Positions 2 to 10,853 of a DNA stretch of 25,744 nucleotides are shown piece after piece. Location: the IMG/VR virus record IMGVR_UViG_3300025874_000079, positions 1 to 25,744 of that record, one strand, 5' to 3'. The position numbers and the translations under genes were made by a program. The notes under the pieces were generated by a model that was given only the letters and a program-made list of their open reading frames with translations, was not told the origin of the DNA and did no database searches. Source of the stretch: a virus. The number at the start of each line of letters is the position of its first letter. Position 1 is the stretch's first letter.

Positions 2-115
2 ATAAATATAAATGTTGAAATAGATACCAATGATGAACGTGACTGCGATCAAATTGAAGAACTTATAAATTTACTAACTGATTTAAAAAAGAAGATGGAA
101 TATTGTGAAGATTAA
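2..115 (+). CDS. C-terminal end of an unknown phage protein (partial)
   Basis: The frame is open from the left edge to a TAA at 113-115, giving the last 37 residues of a protein whose start lies outside the window. The tail is acidic and then lysine-rich, with a predicted helical stretch (ELINLLTDLKKKM). It overlaps the GTG start of the next gene by 11 nt, which is typical of translationally coupled phage genes. No family is recognised from this fragment. It could instead be a chance open frame, but the overlap and the matching strand favour a real gene end. Confidence 0.45.
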   Translation: MNINVEIDTNDERDCDQIEELINLLTDLKKKMEYCED

Positions 116-434
116 CTTTAAAAATACTTGGAGACCATTACCAAGTTGTGTTACTATTAAACAAAGCAAGATCGATGGCCTTGGTTTGTTTGCTGTTAAA
201 GATATTCCTGCTAATACAAATCTAGGACTAATGCGATTAATGTATAATGGAGAGTGGATAAGAACTTCATTAGGGTCATATTCCAATCACACTGAGACAC
301 CTTCTTGTATTAGCGTCTGTTATAAAAATCTATATGGCGATGAAGAATTCTATCTAATAACAGCTAAAGATTTAGTAGCAGGCGATGAGTTAACTCTTAC
401 GTATCAAATGCCAGAGTATCATCAAACTGATTAA
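105..434 (+). CDS. Small SET-domain protein (putative protein-lysine methyltransferase)
   Basis: This 109-aa protein keeps the landmark motifs of a SET domain in order: G25-L-G-L-F-A30 (the GxG S-adenosylmethionine-binding strand), N61-H62 in the NHxxxPSC block, and the C-terminal AKDLVAGDELTLTY segment ending in Y100, the usual catalytic tyrosine. SET proteins transfer methyl groups from SAM to lysine side chains. At 109 residues it is near the minimal size, without pre- or post-SET cysteine clusters. The start is GTG at 105, with GAAGATGGAA upstream as a weak ribosome site, inside the end of the preceding gene. A 52-nt gap holding a late promoter follows. The family call is from visible motifs; the substrate (host or virion protein) is unknown. 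Confidence 0.7.
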   Translation: MKINFKNTWRPLPSCVTIKQSKIDGLGLFAVKDIPANTNLGLMRLMYNGEWIRTSLGSYSNHTETPSCISVCYKNLYGDEEFYLITAKDLVAGDELTLTYQMPEYHQTD

Positions 435-3234: not shown

Positions 3235-3675
3235 ATGAATATTGAACAATTAAGAGAAACACTGACTATTGATGAGGGTAAAGTCAATGAAATTTATAAA
3301 GATCATTTGGGCTACGCAACTTTCGGCATTGGCCATTTGGTCCTCGAATCAGATCCAGAGCATGGACAAGCTGTGGGAACACCCGTCTCAGAAGAAAGAA
3401 CAATTGAATGCTTTGAGCACGATGTACAGTCAGTACTTAAAGACTGTAAAATATTACATGAAGGATGGGATGATTACCCCGAAGAAGCTAAACAAGTAAT
3501 TGCTAATATGATGTTTAATATGGGTAGAACAAGATTAAGTAAATTTAAGAATCATAATTCTGCTTTGCGGGACGGTGATTGGAAAAAAGCTGCTATTGAA
3601 GGAAGAGATTCTAGATGGCATAAACAAGTAACGAATAGAGCTGAACGACTAATGATTCGTTTAGAAAACATTTAA
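3235..3675 (+). CDS. e: T4-type lysozyme (endolysin, GH24 family)
   Basis: A 146-aa protein aligning along its length with T4 lysozyme (164 aa). The catalytic triad is present with T4 spacing: E14 in IDEG, D23 in YKD and T29 in the YATFGIGH block, equivalent to T4 Glu11, Asp20 and Thr26. The later NMMFNMG and SRWHKQVTNRAERL segments match T4's NMVFQMG and SRWYNQTPNRAKRV. It cleaves the glycan strands of peptidoglycan at lysis. There is no signal peptide, so a holin or another route is needed to reach the wall. The ribosome site is AAAGGAAAG upstream of ATG 3235. Two small membrane-protein genes that could supply the holin function follow closely. Confidence 0.92.
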   Translation: MNIEQLRETLTIDEGKVNEIYKDHLGYATFGIGHLVLESDPEHGQAVGTPVSEERTIECFEHDVQSVLKDCKILHEGWDDYPEEAKQVIANMMFNMGRTRLSKFKNHNSALRDGDWKKAAIEGRDSRWHKQVTNRAERLMIRLENI

Positions 3676-3688
3676 TTAGGAGATACAA

Positions 3689-3931
3689 ATGAAAATTAAG
3701 TTACAAGGTAGTCAAGGTAACCTAGCTACAGCAACAAACATGAGCTTTAGCACGCTAATAAGAGTATATAACAGCGGAGCTAGCGATTTGGTATTAACTC
3801 AAAAAGAAGGCGCTGCTGTTATTGGTACCATTACTATTCCAAGTAAAGGTATTGAACTTATTCGTAAAATGCCATCTGAAACTTTGGAAGGTGGAGCTGC
3901 TTTATTGGCTGTATCAGTGGCTAAGCTTTAA
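3689..3931 (+). CDS. Small conserved phage protein, predicted beta-rich
   Basis: An 80-aa protein with a strong ribosome site (TTAGGAGATACAA before ATG 3689). The sequence alternates hydrophobic and polar residues as in a small beta-sandwich (LIRVYNSGASDLVLT, then VIGTITIPSKGIELIRK, then ALLAVSVAKL). It resembles a small protein I recall from many cyanomyophages, with the same 'VYNS...VTQK...G.ALLA.SV' pattern. No signal peptide or catalytic residue is visible. Its place in the late operon suggests a minor structural or decoration protein; this is inference only. Confidence 0.55.
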   Translation: MKIKLQGSQGNLATATNMSFSTLIRVYNSGASDLVLTQKEGAAVIGTITIPSKGIELIRKMPSETLEGGAALLAVSVAKL

Positions 3932-3940
3932 TTAGTTAAT

Positions 3941-4237
3941 ATGGAAAATATATTTGCTCTTATAAATGATGTAGGATTACCAATTGCAGGTGCGCTTGTA
4001 AGTGGTTTCTTTATATTCACTATTATAAAGCAAATGTTAAGCGGGGTCTTAGAACAAATAGATACCCTCAACATATTTACCAAAAGTTTAGAAAATAGAG
4101 CGCGTACTATGAATAACGAAATTATTAAAATCGATATGTTGGTTTCTAGTGCGCTTGAACTTACTCCACCTATAGACAGAATAGCGAGAGCAGAAAATTT
4201 TGTAGAAGATGGTAATATCGATACAAGACGAGACTAA
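3941..4237 (+). CDS. Small membrane protein with coiled coil (holin candidate 1)
   Basis: A 98-aa protein with one predicted transmembrane segment (about residues 10-30, VGLPIAGALVSGFFIFTIIK). A charged, heptad-like helix follows (about 33-75), then a polar tail. There is no clear ribosome site before ATG 3941. It overlaps the next gene by one base (TAATG), and that gene encodes a protein of the same architecture. Small one-TM proteins with a coiled coil beside an endolysin are often holins or holin-like (BhlA/UviB type), so a role in lysis timing is plausible. They could equally be membrane adaptors for the downstream CsgF/CsgG module. Confidence 0.55.
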   Translation: MENIFALINDVGLPIAGALVSGFFIFTIIKQMLSGVLEQIDTLNIFTKSLENRARTMNNEIIKIDMLVSSALELTPPIDRIARAENFVEDGNIDTRRD

Positions 4238-4521
4238 TGGACGAATTAAATCCTGCTGTCTTGGTCGCAGAATATGGATTTAGCACGATAGCGATAGTTG
4301 GTATGGGATACTTTGTATTCTTTATCTGGAAGTTTATTAATGATGAATTAGATCCAAAATTATCAGAAATGCATATGGGACTTATTAGATTAATTGATCA
4401 AATTAGAATGCTTGATCAGGATATGATACGCCTTCAAGAAAAAGTAAAGGTTGTGTTAGAATACAAAGAGAGACAAAAGCAACTCAATGAGAATATATAT
4501 GAAGATAAAAATAAAAGTTGA
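4237..4521 (+). CDS. Small membrane protein with coiled coil (holin candidate 2)
   Basis: A 94-aa protein with a predicted transmembrane helix (about residues 14-34, IAIVGMGYFVFFIWKFI). A long amphipathic helix follows (about 38-80, MGLIRLIDQIRMLDQDMIRL), ending in a lysine- and glutamate-rich tail. Its layout matches the preceding gene (short N-terminal segment, one TM, coiled coil), suggesting a diverged paralogue or a hetero-oligomer partner. The start lies in the TAATG overlap and the end overlaps csgF by about 23 nt. A holin/antiholin-type pair next to lysozyme is the simplest reading. No experimental counterpart is recognised. Confidence 0.55.
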   Translation: MDELNPAVLVAEYGFSTIAIVGMGYFVFFIWKFINDELDPKLSEMHMGLIRLIDQIRMLDQDMIRLQEKVKVVLEYKERQKQLNENIYEDKNKS

Positions 4522-5002
4522 AGATATAATATTAACAGGAATGTTTTGCCTAACATTAATTGGACCAGTTTCTGCTAGTGAAATAAAGTTTGGATTTAAG
4601 AATCCTTCGTTTAGTGGAATCGGTACAAGCAATCATTATTTAACAATTGATAATATAGAACATTCGAGAAAAAAGGCAATTGAAGATGCTTTAGAAGCTG
4701 CAAGAAAGGCAGCAGAAAGAGAAGCAGATAATACTACAATGGCTAAGTTTATTCGTAACTTAGAAAGTAGAATATATGCTCAAATGTCTAAACAACTTGT
4801 TGAATCAATGTTTAGTAATGATGGATCTGTTAGATATGGATCATTTACTTTAGAAGGTAATATTGTTACATATGAAGTTATAGTAAATGCTGATGGATCA
4901 GAAGTAATTAGAATGACAATTGTAGATTCTGAAGGATCAGAAACTGTTATTGAAATACCAGTAGGAACTGGTAACTTTAGTCAGGATTCTGACGGTGGGT
5001 AA
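4499..5002 (+). CDS. csgF: CsgF-like curli assembly factor
   Basis: The mature N-terminus reads EIKFGFKNPSFSG, closely matching E. coli CsgF (TFQFRNPNFGG), the segment that inserts into the CsgG pore and forms a second constriction. A signal peptide precedes it (hydrophobic core about residues 9-24, cleavage near PVSAS/EIK). A charged helix follows (about 48-70) and then a C-terminal beta-rich domain with repeated DGSE/EGSE turns. Length is 167 aa from ATG 4499 (an in-frame ATG at 4487 adds four residues), against 138 aa in E. coli. In E. coli, CsgF sits at the cell surface, couples CsgB to CsgG and helps nucleate curli. It overlaps csgG by 8 nt. Confidence 0.8.
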   Translation: MKIKIKVEDIILTGMFCLTLIGPVSASEIKFGFKNPSFSGIGTSNHYLTIDNIEHSRKKAIEDALEAARKAAEREADNTTMAKFIRNLESRIYAQMSKQLVESMFSNDGSVRYGSFTLEGNIVTYEVIVNADGSEVIRMTIVDSEGSETVIEIPVGTGNFSQDSDGG

Positions 5003-5927
5003 GTATTTAATAATATTACTGCTTTTAAGCGGGTGTGCGCAAATACCAAAATGGTCTGCAGATCCAAAAAAATGCGCAAATGATAAACCTTATGTTTGGG
5101 ATCAATTTAAATCTCGAAAGTTTATATGTGTAGATTATCCAACAGCGGAAAAACTACCAGCATTTGTTGATTTATTAAATTTACCACCGGCTAAAAGTAA
5201 ACCTGTGGTTGCTGTGTATGGATTTAATGATCTTACAGGACAAAGAAAATCAGTAGATAATATAGCATCGTTTTCTACTGCAGTTACTCAAGGTGGCACT
5301 GAAATGCTAATAGATGCTCTCAAAACTGCAGGTGGTGGAACCTGGTTTAGAGTAGTAGAAAGACAAGGAATAGATAATCTTGTGCGAGAAAGACAAATAG
5401 TAAGATCTACTCGTCAAGATGTCGCTAAAGCTAACGGGACGGAACCCACTGGTGTAGGCCCACTCTTATTTGCAGGAATGATTATTGAGGGTGGTATTAT
5501 AGGTTATGATACAAATATGGAAACTGGAGGTCGAGGAGCAAGAACTCTTGGCGTTGGTTTTAGTAAAATGTATCGTAAAGACGTTGTTACAGTATCTGTG
5601 AGAGCAGTATCTGTATTAACGGGTGAAGTTTTGTTAAACGTCCAAGCTAAGAAATCGGTACTTTCTTACGGCTCTTCGGGTGACGTGTTTAGGTTCTATG
5701 AACAAGGCACACAACTTATTGAGTATGAGGACGGAGTGGGTAATAATGAGTCAGTGACATACGCAGTACGAGCGGCTATTGAAGCTGCAGTACTTGAACT
5801 AATATACCAGGGTCACGACCGTAAATTCTGGGATTTAACTGAGCGCCATAGACATCCCCATCAAGTTGATGGAAATAACGAAAGGCACTCAATAAAAGGG
5901 GAAAACAAAAATGAAAAAACTAATTAG
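4995..5927 (+). CDS. csgG: CsgG-like outer-membrane lipoprotein, curli (type VIII) secretion pore
   Basis: A 310-aa homologue of the nonameric curli secretion channel. A lipoprotein signal (LLSGC, Cys14) is followed by signature blocks shared with E. coli CsgG: FSTAV (93-97), VERQGIDNLVRERQIVR (121-137), IEGGIIGYDTN (164-174), GGRGARTLGVG (178-188), LTGEVL (208-213) and DRKFWDL (275-281). The pore constriction in E. coli uses Tyr51, Asn55 and Phe56; here Phe (F93) is kept, but by alignment the Tyr and Asn positions are Asp and Ser. An insertion between the lipobox and the core carries two extra cysteines (C27, C45), and the C-terminus has a polar His/Asn-rich extension (E. coli: 277 aa). The GTG start lies inside csgF, and the end overlaps the next gene by 17 nt. 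Confidence 0.9.
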   Translation: MGKYLIILLLLSGCAQIPKWSADPKKCANDKPYVWDQFKSRKFICVDYPTAEKLPAFVDLLNLPPAKSKPVVAVYGFNDLTGQRKSVDNIASFSTAVTQGGTEMLIDALKTAGGGTWFRVVERQGIDNLVRERQIVRSTRQDVAKANGTEPTGVGPLLFAGMIIEGGIIGYDTNMETGGRGARTLGVGFSKMYRKDVVTVSVRAVSVLTGEVLLNVQAKKSVLSYGSSGDVFRFYEQGTQLIEYEDGVGNNESVTYAVRAAIEAAVLELIYQGHDRKFWDLTERHRHPHQVDGNNERHSIKGENKNEKTN

Positions 5928-6648
5928 TATAGCGGGATTGCTATTCTTGGTTACGTCAGGTTTGGTTTTTGCAGATGATGATAATGAGATTATGATAGAA
6001 CAAAGTGGTGACACTTTAACTTTATATATTGATCAAGTCGGTTACGGTAATAAGATTGGTTTAGACGATTTTTCTGGAACGGGTTCAGATATGACTATTG
6101 TTGGTTCAAATTTAACGTTTGATATTGATATGGTTGGTAATCAGAATTTAATTTATGGTCCTATTGATATGGACTCATCTTCTTTGGTGTTCTCGTTAAC
6201 GGGAGACTCAAATGAGGTGGACTGGAATATCGGTTATATCGGTAGTTCGGACGCTTCTGATTATAACTTTAGTATTACAGGAGATAGCAATACATTTGAT
6301 ATCGATCAAGGATACGTTTATAGTGCTGAAAGATTAGATGCAGATCTAGTTTTAGTTGGTAGTTATAATATATTTGACTTAGACTTCGAAGCTGATGATT
6401 CTGTTTGGACTTTTGATATTACTGGAGATGATAATGATATTAATACATTACAAAATGACGGAGCTCAAGAATTAATATTTGACTTTGTTGGTGATTCTGG
6501 TGATATTGATATTAATCAGATTAGTGGTACATGTGCACAAACCGCCGGTGTTGGATGTTTAACTCCAAACGCTGTAATCAATCTAGATATTACTTCAGAT
6601 AATGCTACTATTCAGATTAATCAAAAAGACGCACCTGGGGATTCTTAA
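5911..6648 (+). CDS. Curlin-repeat-like secreted protein 1 (amyloid subunit candidate)
   Basis: A 245-aa protein with a clear Sec signal peptide (MKKLISIAGLLFLVTSGLVFA, cut before DDDN). The mature chain is very acidic and built from about eight imperfect repeats of 20-25 residues, each with a G-D-x-N turn and then an alternating strand, several matching the curlin pattern N-x5-Q (NEIMIEQ, NTFDIDQ, NDINTLQ). It lacks many of the Gln/Asn ladder residues of E. coli CsgA and is more Asp-rich. Two cysteines lie in the C-terminal quarter (GTCAQTAGVGCL). The mature N-terminus is nearly the same as that of the second curlin-like protein, so the two are paralogues. Encoded directly after csgG, it is the likely substrate; a major subunit or nucleator role is undecided. 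Confidence 0.7.
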   Translation: MKKLISIAGLLFLVTSGLVFADDDNEIMIEQSGDTLTLYIDQVGYGNKIGLDDFSGTGSDMTIVGSNLTFDIDMVGNQNLIYGPIDMDSSSLVFSLTGDSNEVDWNIGYIGSSDASDYNFSITGDSNTFDIDQGYVYSAERLDADLVLVGSYNIFDLDFEADDSVWTFDITGDDNDINTLQNDGAQELIFDFVGDSGDIDINQISGTCAQTAGVGCLTPNAVINLDITSDNATIQINQKDAPGDS

Positions 6649-7714
6649 TTTACTATTCATTAGTGGAATCTCATTTGCAGATTCCATTGGTGATATAGTA
6701 GAATCAACTGGCATAAGTCAGATAGTACGTAATAACGAAGAAATAGTTTTATCAGGAAATATAGTTCCAGTAGAACTAAACGATGAAGCAAAAACTGGTA
6801 ATGGAAGAATGCTTATTGAGTTTTTAGATAAGGCTCAATTGTCTTTAAAAGAACATTCTGAAGTCTTAATTGACGAAATATATTATGACCCAGATCCTTC
6901 GCTTTCAAAAATGAGTATGAAGTTTACAATGGGTACAGCAAGATTTGCTTCTGGTAGATTAGGCTTAGTTAATAAAGCAAATATTGATATTAAAACTCCT
7001 ACAGCTTCAATTGCTGTAAGAGGAACTGATTTTACGACAACAGTAGATGAGTTGGGTAGAAGTTTAATCATACTTTTACCTGATGAAAATGGTGATCCAT
7101 CTGGAGAAATTATAGTTTCAAACCAGGGTGGAGTAGTTACATTAAATGAAGCTTATGCAGCAACAATGGTATCATCATTAGATTCATCGCCAACGCAATC
7201 TATTAAAGTAAATGGAATTACAGCTGCTACGATAGATAATATGTTTATTGTATCACCTCCAGAAGAAGTAGAAGATAGAATAAAGGAAGAATTGGCTGAT
7301 GAACAAGATCAAGATCGAGGTTTACTTGATGGAGATTTTTTAGAGTTTACTGAATTAGAAGAAGACGAATTAAAAGAAGATGAACTTAACGATTTTAATG
7401 AGTTGGATATTGACGAGTTAGATGTCGAATATTTAGTCGATGTTTTAGACATTATAGATAGTTCTGACTTGTTTGATAATCTAGGTGAGTTTGATATCAA
7501 AGGCGCAGCAAGAGGATTTAACGACCAATCACAGTATAATGTATATTTAGAAGATGGCAATTTAGTATTATATAGAAACGTGAATGGCAAGATAAGAATA
7601 AAAATAGGAGCTGGCGGTAACTTTACGCTTAACACTATAACGCCAACCTGGGATGGCATAATTACAGGAAATGAGGGTGAAGACATCCTTATCTATATAA
7701 ATCAGGTGAATTGA
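6602..7714 (+). CDS. FecR-domain periplasmic protein
   Basis: A 370-aa protein with a predicted signal peptide (core LGILNLLFISGISFA, then DSIG). The FecR domain follows at about residues 28-150. It shows the glycine-rich start (IGDIVESTGISQIVRNN), the beta-strands around FLDKAQLSLKEHSEVLID and the hallmark TPTASIAVRGTDF near residues 134-146. The second half is an unusual Glu/Asp/Leu-rich stretch (about 225-295) and then a small beta domain. FecR domains are periplasmic and relay signals or bind envelope polymers; standalone secreted FecR proteins often sit next to CHASE2 cyclases in bacteria, as here. It overlaps curlin 1 by 47 nt and ends 1 nt before curlin 2. The start is chosen because it gives a proper signal peptide; no good ribosome site is seen, implying coupling. 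Confidence 0.75.
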   Translation: MLLFRLIKKTHLGILNLLFISGISFADSIGDIVESTGISQIVRNNEEIVLSGNIVPVELNDEAKTGNGRMLIEFLDKAQLSLKEHSEVLIDEIYYDPDPSLSKMSMKFTMGTARFASGRLGLVNKANIDIKTPTASIAVRGTDFTTTVDELGRSLIILLPDENGDPSGEIIVSNQGGVVTLNEAYAATMVSSLDSSPTQSIKVNGITAATIDNMFIVSPPEEVEDRIKEELADEQDQDRGLLDGDFLEFTELEEDELKEDELNDFNELDIDELDVEYLVDVLDIIDSSDLFDNLGEFDIKGAARGFNDQSQYNVYLEDGNLVLYRNVNGKIRIKIGAGGNFTLNTITPTWDGIITGNEGEDILIYINQVN

Positions 7715-7715
7715 T

Positions 7716-8480
7716 ATGTTGGAAAAATTAGAAGAATATTCAATAAAAGTTTTAATCTATGTAGGCTTAGTTATGTGGCCTATGATAATTCTAGTAGCTA
7801 TTTTTAGTTTTGTAACAGAAGTAGCAGCTGATGATAATGTTATATCATTGGAACAATCGGGCGATAACCTCGCGTTAGGCGTAGATCAGATAGGTTATAA
7901 TAACAAAATTGTTATGTTAGATAATCAATCATACATTAATTCTTCAAATTTAAATATGTATTTAGTACAGGTCAATGATTCTGAAGGCCTGAATAAAATT
8001 ACATTTGACGAAGTAAGTGGTTCAGGCAATCAAATGAAACTGGCTCAAGGTGTTGCATGGAATACTCTTGATTCTTATACTGATTTAACTTGGTGGGCAG
8101 ATGGTTATGAAGGTGGTGGTCATGAAATAGATATTACACTATATGGTGATAATAATGATATGGCAGTACAACAAACAAATCAAGGGTCTACTACAGGTCA
8201 TAGTTTTGATTTACATCTCGACGGAGATGGTAATAAGGTTCAGGTCAAACAACAAAGCGATGGTGATAAGAATTTAAACTTAACAATCTATAATGATTAC
8301 AATGATGTATTTGTTCGCCAAAAAGGTAATAATGCAAGTCATAATGCTAATGTAACACTTGACGGTTTATATGGAACAGACTTAATATTAAAACAAATGA
8401 CTACTACAGATCAAACATATAATCTAATGCAATATTGTGGAAATCCAGCTGGTTGTATAGTATCAATAACTCAACAATAA
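7716..8480 (+). CDS. Curlin-repeat-like secreted protein 2 (amyloid subunit candidate)
   Basis: A 254-aa protein with a long N-terminal hydrophobic segment (about residues 12-36) ending VAADDN, either a long signal peptide or an anchor. The mature region has many curlin-type N-x5-Q units: NVISLEQ, NQMKLAQ, NDMAVQQ, NKVQVKQ, NDVFVRQ, and the related TDLILKQ and CIVSITQ. They are separated by about 23 residues and preceded by G-D-x-N-like turns. This is closer to canonical CsgA/CsgB than curlin 1. Its mature start (DDNVISLEQSGDNLALGVDQ) mirrors that of curlin 1. Two cysteines sit near the C-terminus (YCGNPAGC). It lies 1 nt after fecR and 3 nt before the cyclase. It is likely exported through CsgG and may co-assemble with curlin 1. 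Confidence 0.75.
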   Translation: MLEKLEEYSIKVLIYVGLVMWPMIILVAIFSFVTEVAADDNVISLEQSGDNLALGVDQIGYNNKIVMLDNQSYINSSNLNMYLVQVNDSEGLNKITFDEVSGSGNQMKLAQGVAWNTLDSYTDLTWWADGYEGGGHEIDITLYGDNNDMAVQQTNQGSTTGHSFDLHLDGDGNKVQVKQQSDGDKNLNLTIYNDYNDVFVRQKGNNASHNANVTLDGLYGTDLILKQMTTTDQTYNLMQYCGNPAGCIVSITQQ

Positions 8481-8483
8481 CTT

Positions 8484-10328
8484 ATGAAACATATAACATC
8501 TATCTGGGCTACAATATTCATAGCAGCAATGCTAATAGGTATAAGAGTATCTGATCCGGCATTAGTTGAGCAATTACGATTAAATACCTTTGATACCTAT
8601 ATCAAGACAATCACTCAGCGTGATTCCACTAGGGTTACCCTATTGAACATAGGAGAAGATTCACTCAGCGTGATGGGTCAATATCCCTTTCCGAGATCAA
8701 CATATGCTCAAATGATAAGTGACCTCAGAGGTGCAAACGCGGGGCTTATTGGGTTTACTATTATGTTTCCAGAGGCTGACAGGTTTGGCGGTGATGAAAT
8801 CTTTGCTTCTTGGGTGAAAGATAATGGTATTATACTAGCTCAAGATGCTGATGAAAACGGAAAAAGCACTTCTGCGCCCTATGTTGGAACTGCCATCTTT
8901 GGGACAGGTAATCCACTAGATTGGGCAATAAGATATAGAGGATTAGTAACCAATATTCCTGAAATAGAAGCTGGTGCATGGGGTCATGGTCTTATAAATG
9001 CTATGCCAGAAGTCGATGGATTAGTAAGACGTATACCATTAATCTCTCAGATCAATGATCAATTATATCCTTCGTTTGCTTTAGAAACAACTCGAGTGCT
9101 AAGTGAAAAACCTTCGTATACAGTAAAGGTAAATGATATTGGTATTGAAGAGGTTATAATTAGACCTCATAGAATATCATCAGATGCTAATGGTTCTATA
9201 TGGATTAATCCAAACTATAAGTTTACGGAAATAGAGTACGGGTCCAACGAATTACCTGATCTACAGGGTTCGACTGTTTTGATTGGTCTGACTGCCAAAG
9301 GTCTAGCTGCTCAGGTTCCAACTCCTTCAGGTCTAAGATCTGCACATCATCTTCAAGCTGCAGCTCTTGAGACGATATTGTCAGGAGACTCGATATCTCG
9401 TCCGATATGGGCTGATCTAGGTGAAATAGCTGTAGTTCTAATTGGATCTCTTGCGATAATTCTTTCAATTTATCATTTGCCATTGTGGGCTTCTCTCTTG
9501 ACATTTGTGTCGACTCTGAGTATTTCAATTGGCGGCGCTTTCTACTTCTGGTACGAATCTCAAATTCTCCTTGATATAAGTTATCCTATGATAATATATA
9601 TACTTGTGTTCGCGTCAGGGTCTTTTAATAACTTCTATAAACAATTCATGCTAAGACAACAGATTAAGAAACAATTTGAGACCTACCTAGATCCTAAGCA
9701 AGTCTATCTACTACAAAAGAATCCTGAGTTACTAAGACTTGGCGGTGATAGACGAGAGATGTCATTCTTGTTTATGGACATATGTGGATTTACTCCAATA
9801 TCAGAACATTATAAAAATAATGATGATCCAGAAGGATTAGTAGAGTTAGTAAACGAATTTCTTGATGCTATGACTAAGATCATATTAAATAATGGTGGCA
9901 CAATCGATAAGTATATGGGTGATTGTATTATGGCGTTTTGGAATGCTCCGTTACCATGTGAAAACCATGCTGAGATGGCCGTTAAATCAGCAATACAAAT
10001 AGAGGCTAAAACCAATGAACTTAAAGAAACTTACAAAGAACGAGGCCTTCCGGACATTAACGTCGGCACTGGCATTAATACCGGCGATTGCATTGTTGGG
10101 AATATGGGAAGCGAATCAAGGTTTGACTATTCAGTCATCGGAGATGCAGTTAACCTTGCAGCTAGACTCGAAGCAACAGCTGCAAGACATGAATACGTAG
10201 AGTATAAAACAATCATATCGTCATATACTAAGGATCAACTACCAGACAATTATCCATGTATAGACATAGGTAACATTAAAGTAAAGGGTAAGGACGAGCT
10301 TATAACCATTTATTCACCAATTACCTAG
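8484..10328 (+). CDS. CHASE2-domain class III adenylate cyclase
   Basis: A 614-aa membrane enzyme that converts ATP to cAMP. An N-terminal TM (about residues 5-20) leads into a CHASE2 extracytoplasmic sensor (about 25-300). Three TMs follow (about 311-331, 335-356, 362-380) and then a cytoplasmic cyclase domain (about 425-600). All key residues are visible: metal-binding D432 (FMDICGFT) and D480 (DKYMGD), substrate-selecting K476 and D548 (FDYSVIGD, which favours ATP over GTP), and transition-state N557 and R561 (VNLAARLE). The catalytic domain therefore looks intact. It ends the curli-FecR run, 3 nt after curlin 2. CHASE2 cyclases next to FecR proteins are a bacterial arrangement, which suggests acquisition as a unit. 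Phage-made cAMP could act on host CRP-like regulation, but no receptor is encoded in the window. Confidence 0.92.
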   Translation: MKHITSIWATIFIAAMLIGIRVSDPALVEQLRLNTFDTYIKTITQRDSTRVTLLNIGEDSLSVMGQYPFPRSTYAQMISDLRGANAGLIGFTIMFPEADRFGGDEIFASWVKDNGIILAQDADENGKSTSAPYVGTAIFGTGNPLDWAIRYRGLVTNIPEIEAGAWGHGLINAMPEVDGLVRRIPLISQINDQLYPSFALETTRVLSEKPSYTVKVNDIGIEEVIIRPHRISSDANGSIWINPNYKFTEIEYGSNELPDLQGSTVLIGLTAKGLAAQVPTPSGLRSAHHLQAAALETILSGDSISRPIWADLGEIAVVLIGSLAIILSIYHLPLWASLLTFVSTLSISIGGAFYFWYESQILLDISYPMIIYILVFASGSFNNFYKQFMLRQQIKKQFETYLDPKQVYLLQKNPELLRLGGDRREMSFLFMDICGFTPISEHYKNNDDPEGLVELVNEFLDAMTKIILNNGGTIDKYMGDCIMAFWNAPLPCENHAEMAVKSAIQIEAKTNELKETYKERGLPDINVGTGINTGDCIVGNMGSESRFDYSVIGDAVNLAARLEATAARHEYVEYKTIISSYTKDQLPDNYPCIDIGNIKVKGKDELITIYSPIT

Positions 10329-10330
10329 TC

Positions 10331-10384
10331 TTATAACAAATTGATCTAAAAAAAGTGAATTATTTTCACTCAGGTCGTTTACAA
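10331..10384 (+). repeat. 54-bp perfect direct repeat, copy 1 (stem-loop plus promoter -35)
   Basis: This 54-bp segment recurs without mismatch at 10848-10901, on either side of the metallopeptidase gene. It holds a small hairpin (AGTGAA, 5-nt loop, TTCACT) with seven A's before it, and ends in the -35 box of an early promoter. Read on the - strand, the hairpin is followed by seven T's, so it could stop antisense transcripts. The unit resembles the mobile 'promoter-early stem-loop' cassettes of T-even phages. Confidence 0.9.
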
Positions 10385-10406
10385 AGGTCCCAAAATGTAG
10401 TATAAT
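10378..10406 (+). promoter_or_regulatory. Sigma70-type early promoter P1
   Basis: TTTACA at 10378-10383 and TATAAT at 10401-10406 are separated by exactly 17 nt. They are followed by ATACCCATATTA, a downstream block shared with the other early promoters here. It drives the metallopeptidase gene starting at 10437. Confidence 0.85.
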
Positions 10407-10436
10407 ATACCCATATTAACGATAAGGAACCAAGCA

Positions 10437-10853
10437 ATGCCGTATTTTAAAGTAACTGGTCAAGTTAAAAACAAAAAGAAAGTCAAAGAGTATTTAGATA
10501 ATCTTTCTAAAGAGCTTGGTATCAATCGTATGTGGTCAAAGGTAATATTCGTAAGGTTTAAAACTAAGCTTGATAATGATAGTCAGGGCCTCTGCTGGGG
10601 TGATTATAAAGAAGGATACGCTGAAATTAAAATTGCTCGTACGTCTGAGGGTAATGATATACCATATGATATGATGATGCAAACTTTAGCTCATGAAATG
10701 GTTCATGCTAAACAATATCTAAGAAAGGAACTTAATGGTTGGACTAACTCATGGATGAATAGAAAGCCTCGTAACTATAAGTACGAAAACGCTCCTTGGG
10801 AAAAAGAAGCTTATGGGCGTGAAGAAGAGTTATATAAGAAGTGCTGGTTATAA
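10437..10853 (+). CDS. Small zinc metallopeptidase-like protein (SprT-like)
   Basis: A 138-aa protein with the zincin motif H86-E-M-V-H90 inside LAHEMVHAKQY, and a downstream PWEKEAY block whose E124 is a candidate third zinc ligand. The overall layout resembles small SprT-like phage proteins. The N-terminal third is basic (VKNKKKVKEYL). It would be cytoplasmic, having no signal peptide. It has its own promoter (P1) and ribosome site (AAGGAA) and sits alone between two copies of a 54-bp repeat, as if it were an exchangeable cassette. Early expression suggests a role in host takeover or protein/DNA-crosslink processing. The zinc motif is seen directly; the role is inferred. Confidence 0.75.
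   Translation: MPYFKVTGQVKNKKKVKEYLDNLSKELGINRMWSKVIFVRFKTKLDNDSQGLCWGDYKEGYAEIKIARTSEGNDIPYDMMMQTLAHEMVHAKQYLRKELNGWTNSWMNRKPRNYKYENAPWEKEAYGREEELYKKCWL

Follow-up and report, generated by a model that had tools for sequence, protein, structure and literature searches.

We analyzed a curli-like secretion module in a 25,744-base viral record (IMG/VR record IMGVR_UViG_3300025874_000079; this whole stretch is hereafter the window), which belongs to a marine, T4-like phage of bacteria. Six genes on the + strand (4487–10328) encode, in order, CsgF, CsgG, a curlin-family protein (Cur1), a FecR-domain protein, a second curlin-family protein (Cur2), and a CHASE2 adenylate cyclase, and are preceded by two small membrane proteins (TM1 and TM2; Table 1). 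A sequence-only reading of the same DNA had already placed six adjacent genes here but had left out the two upstream module genes. The genes are tightly packed, with gaps of ≤3 nt and overlaps of up to 47 nt. Signal peptides are visible in the exported module proteins. At the sequence level, the parts minimally required for type VIII secretion (CsgG, CsgF, and two exported curlin-family subunits) are all present, and their linkage with the FecR-domain protein, the cyclase, and the TM pair is kept across many marine phages.

Table 1 The curli-like module and the lysozyme gene directly upstream of it, in window positions
Feature	Position	Strand	Basis of assignment
TM1, 98-amino-acid membrane protein, one transmembrane helix and coiled coil	3941..4237	+	phrog_18771
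TM2, 94 amino acids, TM1 paralogue	4237..4521	+	
CsgF	4487..5002 (start may be 4499)	+	PF10614
CsgG outer-membrane lipoprotein pore, GTG start, lipobox	4995..5927	+	PF03783, solved CsgG
Cur1, exported curlin-family protein	5911..6648	+	PF07012 weak; homologues match; all-beta model
Exported FecR-domain protein, C-terminus ILIYINQVN	6602..7714	+	PF04773, PupR fold
Cur2, exported curlin-family protein	7716..8480	+	homologous to Cur1; relatives match PF07012, CsgA
CHASE2 adenylate cyclase	8484..10328	+	PF05226, PF00211, intact catalytic residues
T4-type lysozyme	3235-3675	+	

Elsewhere in the window, T4-like genes encode a single-strand DNA-binding protein, a gp59 helicase loader, a DNA end protector, head closure and tail tube proteins, and gp53 and gp5-type baseplate proteins. 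No near DNA match was found among public phages, and at the protein level the nearest isolates are Pelagibacter phage HTVC008M and Methylophilales phage Melnitz. The module is already published in these related viruses, and the window is a further example of it. csgF, csgG, and associated genes were reported from pelagimyophages in 2020, with a proposed role in “sibling capture” (PMC7029224), and the module is annotated in both HTVC008M and Melnitz; the sequence-only reading was right to mention curli-related clusters in pelagimyophages. The full set with FecR and cyclase, which that reading had singled out for study, is not new as such and was described in 2022 as one or two “histidine kinases”, CsgF, CsgG, curlin, and FecR, often with a second curlin and a cyclase; it occurs in podo- and myophages, is expressed in ocean metatranscriptomes, and was assigned an alphaproteobacterial origin (PMC9599517). 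For Melnitz, csgA and csgB were called missing (PMC9004378), whereas its GenBank entry annotates two curlin-associated repeat proteins. New here are the association of the TM pair with the module, a C-terminal motif of the FecR-domain protein, and a variant with type I secretion parts.

The two pore components are firmly assigned, as the sequence-only reading had claimed from their signatures. CsgF matches PF10614 (E=1.8e-14), and its FxNPxF motif, which lies in the CsgG-binding N-terminus and aligns with TFQFRNPNFGG of E. coli CsgF, is present in 68/68 full-length homologues; a single-sequence search of the PDB with CsgF gave no match. CsgG matches both PF03783 (E=4.6e-52) and solved CsgG (1e-45), and a lipobox is found in 71/71 homologues.

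The Pfam search proposed as a check, firm for CsgF, CsgG, FecR, and the cyclase, was weak for the window's own curlins: Cur1 scores 18.9 bits against PF07012 (E=0.0015) and Cur2 only E=0.57, both below the cut-off of 20.7 bits. The reading of two curlin-repeat proteins was instead sustained through their relatives and their mutual homology. PF07012 is matched by 41 of 45 homologues in the first slot and 15 of 31 in the second, hhalign shows the two families to be homologous (99.4%, E 1.1e-21), and the Cur2 family matches solved CsgA (E=0.0048), on which grounds we regard both as curlins. G[DSYNG]xN motifs also exceed shuffled expectation, with six in one window curlin (shuffle mean 0.87; 0/5000 shuffles reach 6) and five in the other (mean 1.03; 9/5000 reach 5). 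The predicted Cur1 model is all-beta and solenoid-like (mean predicted local distance difference test (pLDDT) 81). No solved curlin topped its list of matches; Foldseek against the PDB returned nothing for it at E ≤ 0.001, and VIA-align gave general beta-helix likeness only. In some phages the second subunit carries PA14 or F5/8C binding domains.

The gene for the FecR-domain protein (PF04773, E=1.9e-8) is flanked by those of the two curlins; this assignment of the sequence-only reading was borne out, as was that of the membrane cyclase. Its FecR domain, modeled with AlphaFold2, matches the PupR cell-surface signaling fold (Z 16.1, root-mean-square deviation 2.6, 136 residues aligned). The model as a whole is moderate (mean pLDDT 65, predicted template modeling score 0.46): a low-confidence stretch at about 215–291 is followed by a confident C-terminal beta domain at about 291–370 (pLDDT 73–89). 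The protein does not fit the anti-sigma FecR/PupR type, since its signal peptide directly precedes the FecR region and no sigma gene is adjacent. The 75 residues preceding the last 80 of the FecR proteins are strongly acidic (median net charge −23). At the C-terminus, the motif [ILV]x[ILV]xQ plus 1–3 residues closes 55/55 distinct phage proteins of a first set and 88/93 of a second sample, as well as 44/51 Cur2 and, with a slightly longer tail, 59/60 Cur1 proteins, counts that are drawn from related sequences and are not independent events. This beta-strand-Gln ending occurs in 0/1015 other phage open reading frames (ORFs) and in 0/28 bacterial FecR proteins near CHASE2 cyclases, while 16/17 bacterial curlin-like ORFs have a looser form of it.

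The last gene of the module encodes a cyclase with a CHASE2 domain (PF05226, 7.3e-36) and a class III catalytic domain (PF00211, 3.6e-19). All catalytic residues are present (D432, D480, K476, S550, N557, and R561) and fill the class III roles: D432 and D480 as metal-binding aspartates, K476 as the adenine-specifying lysine, and N557 and R561 in the transition state. These residues are kept in 34–35 of 35 cyclases compared. In the Melnitz cyclase (L003:12526-14577, +), Ser replaces the transition-state Asn, and that enzyme may be weak or inactive. A cyclic nucleotide-binding domain was found in none of six phage records (two complete genomes of isolates and four contigs longer than 100 kb), so that cyclic AMP (cAMP) would have to be read by the host. 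In a quick tree of 102 cyclases, those of the curli phages all fall on one side of a branch with 98% support (Shimodaira–Hasegawa-like approximate likelihood ratio test), while the cyclases of the type I variant described below and those of bacteria form one group each, the type I group lying between the other two. With a bacterial root, which is assumed, this quick tree fits a single transfer into viruses.

To place the window among its relatives, we drew on a CsgG scan with at least 587 confirmed loci, a number that makes curli modules of phages very common in the ocean. Gene order was tabulated for 84 sequences, made up of HTVC008M, Melnitz, the window, one short locus derived from the window itself, and the best 80 of these at least 587 loci. 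Wherever the contig was long enough, the genes nearly always ran TM1-TM2-CsgF-CsgG-Cur1-FecR-Cur2-cyclase, with the TM pair upstream of csgF in 81/84 sequences and curlin substrates in nearly all loci. This synteny, another check proposed beforehand, in many viral contigs and two complete isolate genomes rules out a chimeric contig. Seen from the cyclase, all or nearly all of about 35 loci with ≥5.8 kb of upstream sequence had an export module, either curli or type I. Some module-bearing viral contigs are very large: L382 (357 kb; 4837-6510, −), whose second subunit has an F5/8C domain, L380 (203 kb), and L454 (250 kb). In three loci (L380:4391-6421, −; L381:4777-6786, −; L384:9717-11627, +), an extra exported protein of 640–680 amino acids lies between FecR/Cur2 and the cyclase; it has an aromatic C-terminus (xIKF/LKF) and no Pfam match (one or two scanned), and is perhaps an outer-membrane barrel.

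The TM1 and TM2 proteins (about 95 amino acids, one transmembrane helix and a coiled coil) are most likely the upstream “histidine kinases” of PMC9599517, judging from their position; no kinase domain (HisKA/HATPase) was found among 45 family members. We considered whether the pair is independent of export modules, as 40 of 80 TM-centered loci seemed csgG-free, and rejected this: csgG was present in 12 of 16 such contigs checked. In those we read, it lay just past the fetched stretch, in an operon on the opposite strand that converges with the TM pair. The others that we read were the end of a contig (L389), L387 with the type I variant, and L386, an apparent exception. Because the pair has stayed with the module even where the operon is inverted, a functional link is more plausible than accidental proximity.

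In a set of variant contigs, the curli exporter is replaced. Upstream of the cyclase, contigs L390/L394 (one 148-kb contig) and L391, and in part L395, L398, L402, L403, L404, and L409, carry some or all of a FecR-cadherin protein, a TolC-type protein, an ABC (ATP-binding cassette)-like membrane protein, and an HlyD protein. The FecR-cadherin protein (1299 amino acids, complete only in L390/L394 and L391) is phrog_37870, the same family as the window's FecR-domain protein (E=1.8e-32). CsgG is absent from the 148-kb contig, and the TM pair is found in all variant contigs but L398, a short one. T4 gp23 and portal genes were not found in these contigs, which are assigned to phages provisionally, from IMG/VR and from their genes for phage-type nuclease, ATPase, ribonucleotide reductase, and tail-fibre-like proteins. 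The ABC-like protein (L391:8203-8955, +; L395:2801-3550, +; L402:1810-2565, +; L398:180-932, +), of only about 250 amino acids, lacks a Walker A motif, and its surroundings showed no ABC ATPase. We found no literature on a FecR-adhesin-cyclase system. The variant separates the elements that stay (FecR, the TM pair, and the CHASE2 cyclase) from an exchangeable adhesin exporter, and since the former persist while the exporter differs, the constant function would be adhesin display. This is the strongest argument for adhesion. Sensor and curli parts probably came from different sources, because 23 of 80 bacterial cyclase loci have a part resembling this type I machinery, CsgF was found in none of 16 bacterial genomes with the related cyclase, and no FecR, cyclase, or TM genes lie near 10 related bacterial curli loci.

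Taken together, we propose, with a probability of about 0.5, that the phage makes its infected host both assemble an adhesive, curli-like fibre at the cell surface and monitor it. CsgG and CsgF would export Cur1 and Cur2, which would assemble outside the cell. The FecR-domain protein could serve as both anchor and sensor: its FecR domain would stay in the periplasm, its acidic linker would thread the CsgG channel, and its curlin-type C-terminus may join or seed the fibre. Such a linker would suit the positive charge predicted for the CsgG/CsgF channel (PMC9004378). The periplasmic CHASE2 domain would then read the state of the FecR domain and set the level of cAMP, which would act through a putative host receptor. 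That CHASE2 is a controlling sensor is supported by Sinorhizobium CyaD1, which is constitutively active without its CHASE2 domain (PMC5498481). The benefit would most likely be an altered infected-cell surface, through adhesion to cells or particles or through the blocking of competing phages. Among the roles suggested in the sequence-only reading, adhesion and an altered cell surface are thus the ones that the type I variant favors, though it does not prove them.

Several observations weigh against such a fibre. The strongest is that Melnitz-infected cells did not clump in culture, and fibres were not reported (PMC9004378). Neither CsgE nor CsgC was matched among the genes at 3235-10853, and the lack of CsgE there is a further difficulty; CsgE is not essential (PMC7029224), and alphaproteobacterial modules are without CsgE and CsgC (PMC9599517). 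Profile comparison did not support homology between the FecR C-terminal domain and the curlins, which have in common only the short motif at the end and the spacing of strands. On the sensing side, the putative FecR–CHASE2 contact has to be weighed against the cAMP-regulated FecR protein SMc02177 of Sinorhizobium, which was dispensable for signal perception (PMC5498481).

If the module sets lysis timing, as proposed for Melnitz in 2022 (PMC9004378), CsgG would be a pinholin- or secretin-like pore. The same lysis set would then include the TM pair and also, for the clade of the window, the neighboring lysozyme. The lysozyme does adjoin the TM pair in the window, as in about 20 of its close relatives, and TM1 and TM2 are small and have a single membrane helix; compared with holins or pinholins of BhlA or YvrJ type, they show a very weak likeness to YvrJ (E 0.05 in 3/45). 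However, in most loci outside this clade the lysozyme is elsewhere or absent (in some clades it lies 0.4–3 kb downstream of the cyclase), a pore would need no curlins, FecR, or cyclase, and yet the CsgG-binding motif of CsgF is kept, curlins are nearly always present, and the type I variant swaps the pore for secretion parts and an adhesin; a lysis role therefore seems improbable to us. An ungated CsgG could also admit larger nutrients such as cofactors or siderophores to the periplasm (PMC7029224, PMC9599517), which would agree with the CsgE gate not being found among the module genes but would leave CsgF, two curlins, and the type I adhesin variant unexplained, and we give this idea very little credence.

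Alternatively, the cyclase, FecR, and TM pair could form a separate cAMP signaling device that alters host physiology, with the curli genes as mere neighbors or as its target. Bacterial FecR-cyclase pairs without curli exist, and in the 31.8 kb of contig L386, which has the cyclase and the TM pair, no CsgG was found; against this, the FecR gene sits between two curlin genes, its product ends in a curlin-type motif, and nearly all cyclase-centered loci with enough upstream sequence include an export module, making such a device unlikely. Overall, the type I variant favors the display of a surface adhesin, with feedback through cAMP, rather than a lysis pore. A bolder and more tentative version of the surface-fibre proposal, possible though in our judgment doubtful, is an exchangeable surface-adhesin cassette in which a fixed FecR domain/CHASE2/TM core is combined with either curli or a type I adhesin, the FecR protein of the curli version being a pore-threading fibre anchor with a periplasmic domain that signals the state of the fibre through cAMP. 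If this anchor model were true, a virus would sense the exterior of its host cell through a fibre of its own building.

A few observations concern the surroundings of the module. T4 late promoters (TATAAATA/CTAAATA) were no more frequent than expected by chance, with none on the + strand immediately 5′ of the module, and the number of sigma-70 sites was within chance expectation. Just 3′ of the cyclase, 10437-10853 (+) encodes a putative SprT/M91-like metallopeptidase (scores under cut-offs), and such a gene follows the module in about 10 related contigs too. Near the start of the window, 105-434 (+) encodes a 109-amino-acid SET-domain protein (PF00856, E=3.6e-7), possibly a protein methyltransferase or a derived fold. 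CsgG also matches positions 226-957 of OR851715.1, a “Salmonella phage” record of 1,499 bases; given its length and the host it names, this is probably a piece of host csg sequence labeled as phage.

Compared with known systems, the window is closest to HTVC008M (KC465899, 7562-13807) and Melnitz (MZ577097, 50731-56876), which share its gene content and gene order, FecR and CHASE2 cyclase included, at 40–47% identity for CsgG and 35–46% for the cyclase. Unlike in these two phages, the window's curlins are more degenerate and, in its clade, the lysozyme lies directly upstream; its Cur2 is also shorter than the HTVC008M counterpart and without the PA14 domain of the latter. With the bacterial curli operon (csgBAC/csgDEFG), the phage module shares CsgG, CsgF, and curlin-family subunits, while no CsgE, CsgC, or CsgD was found among the module genes; FecR, the CHASE2 cyclase, and the TM pair are phage-module additions, none of which occurs near 10 related bacterial curli loci. 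The same cyclase architecture is found in the bacterial CHASE2 cyclase loci L084-L163 (Bradyrhizobium, Thalassospira, and marine Alphaproteobacteria), with a FecR-domain protein in 27/80 and type I secretion-like parts in 23/80; unlike the phage module, these have neither curli genes nor a TM pair, and CsgF was found in 0/16 such genomes. Finally, although the Burkholderia BiofilmReg operon has a CHASE2 histidine kinase rather than a cyclase as its output and contains no curli, it resembles the phage module in placing an exported FecR-domain protein (FecR-LysM) beside a CHASE2 receptor, and it is linked to biofilm (PMC5192318).

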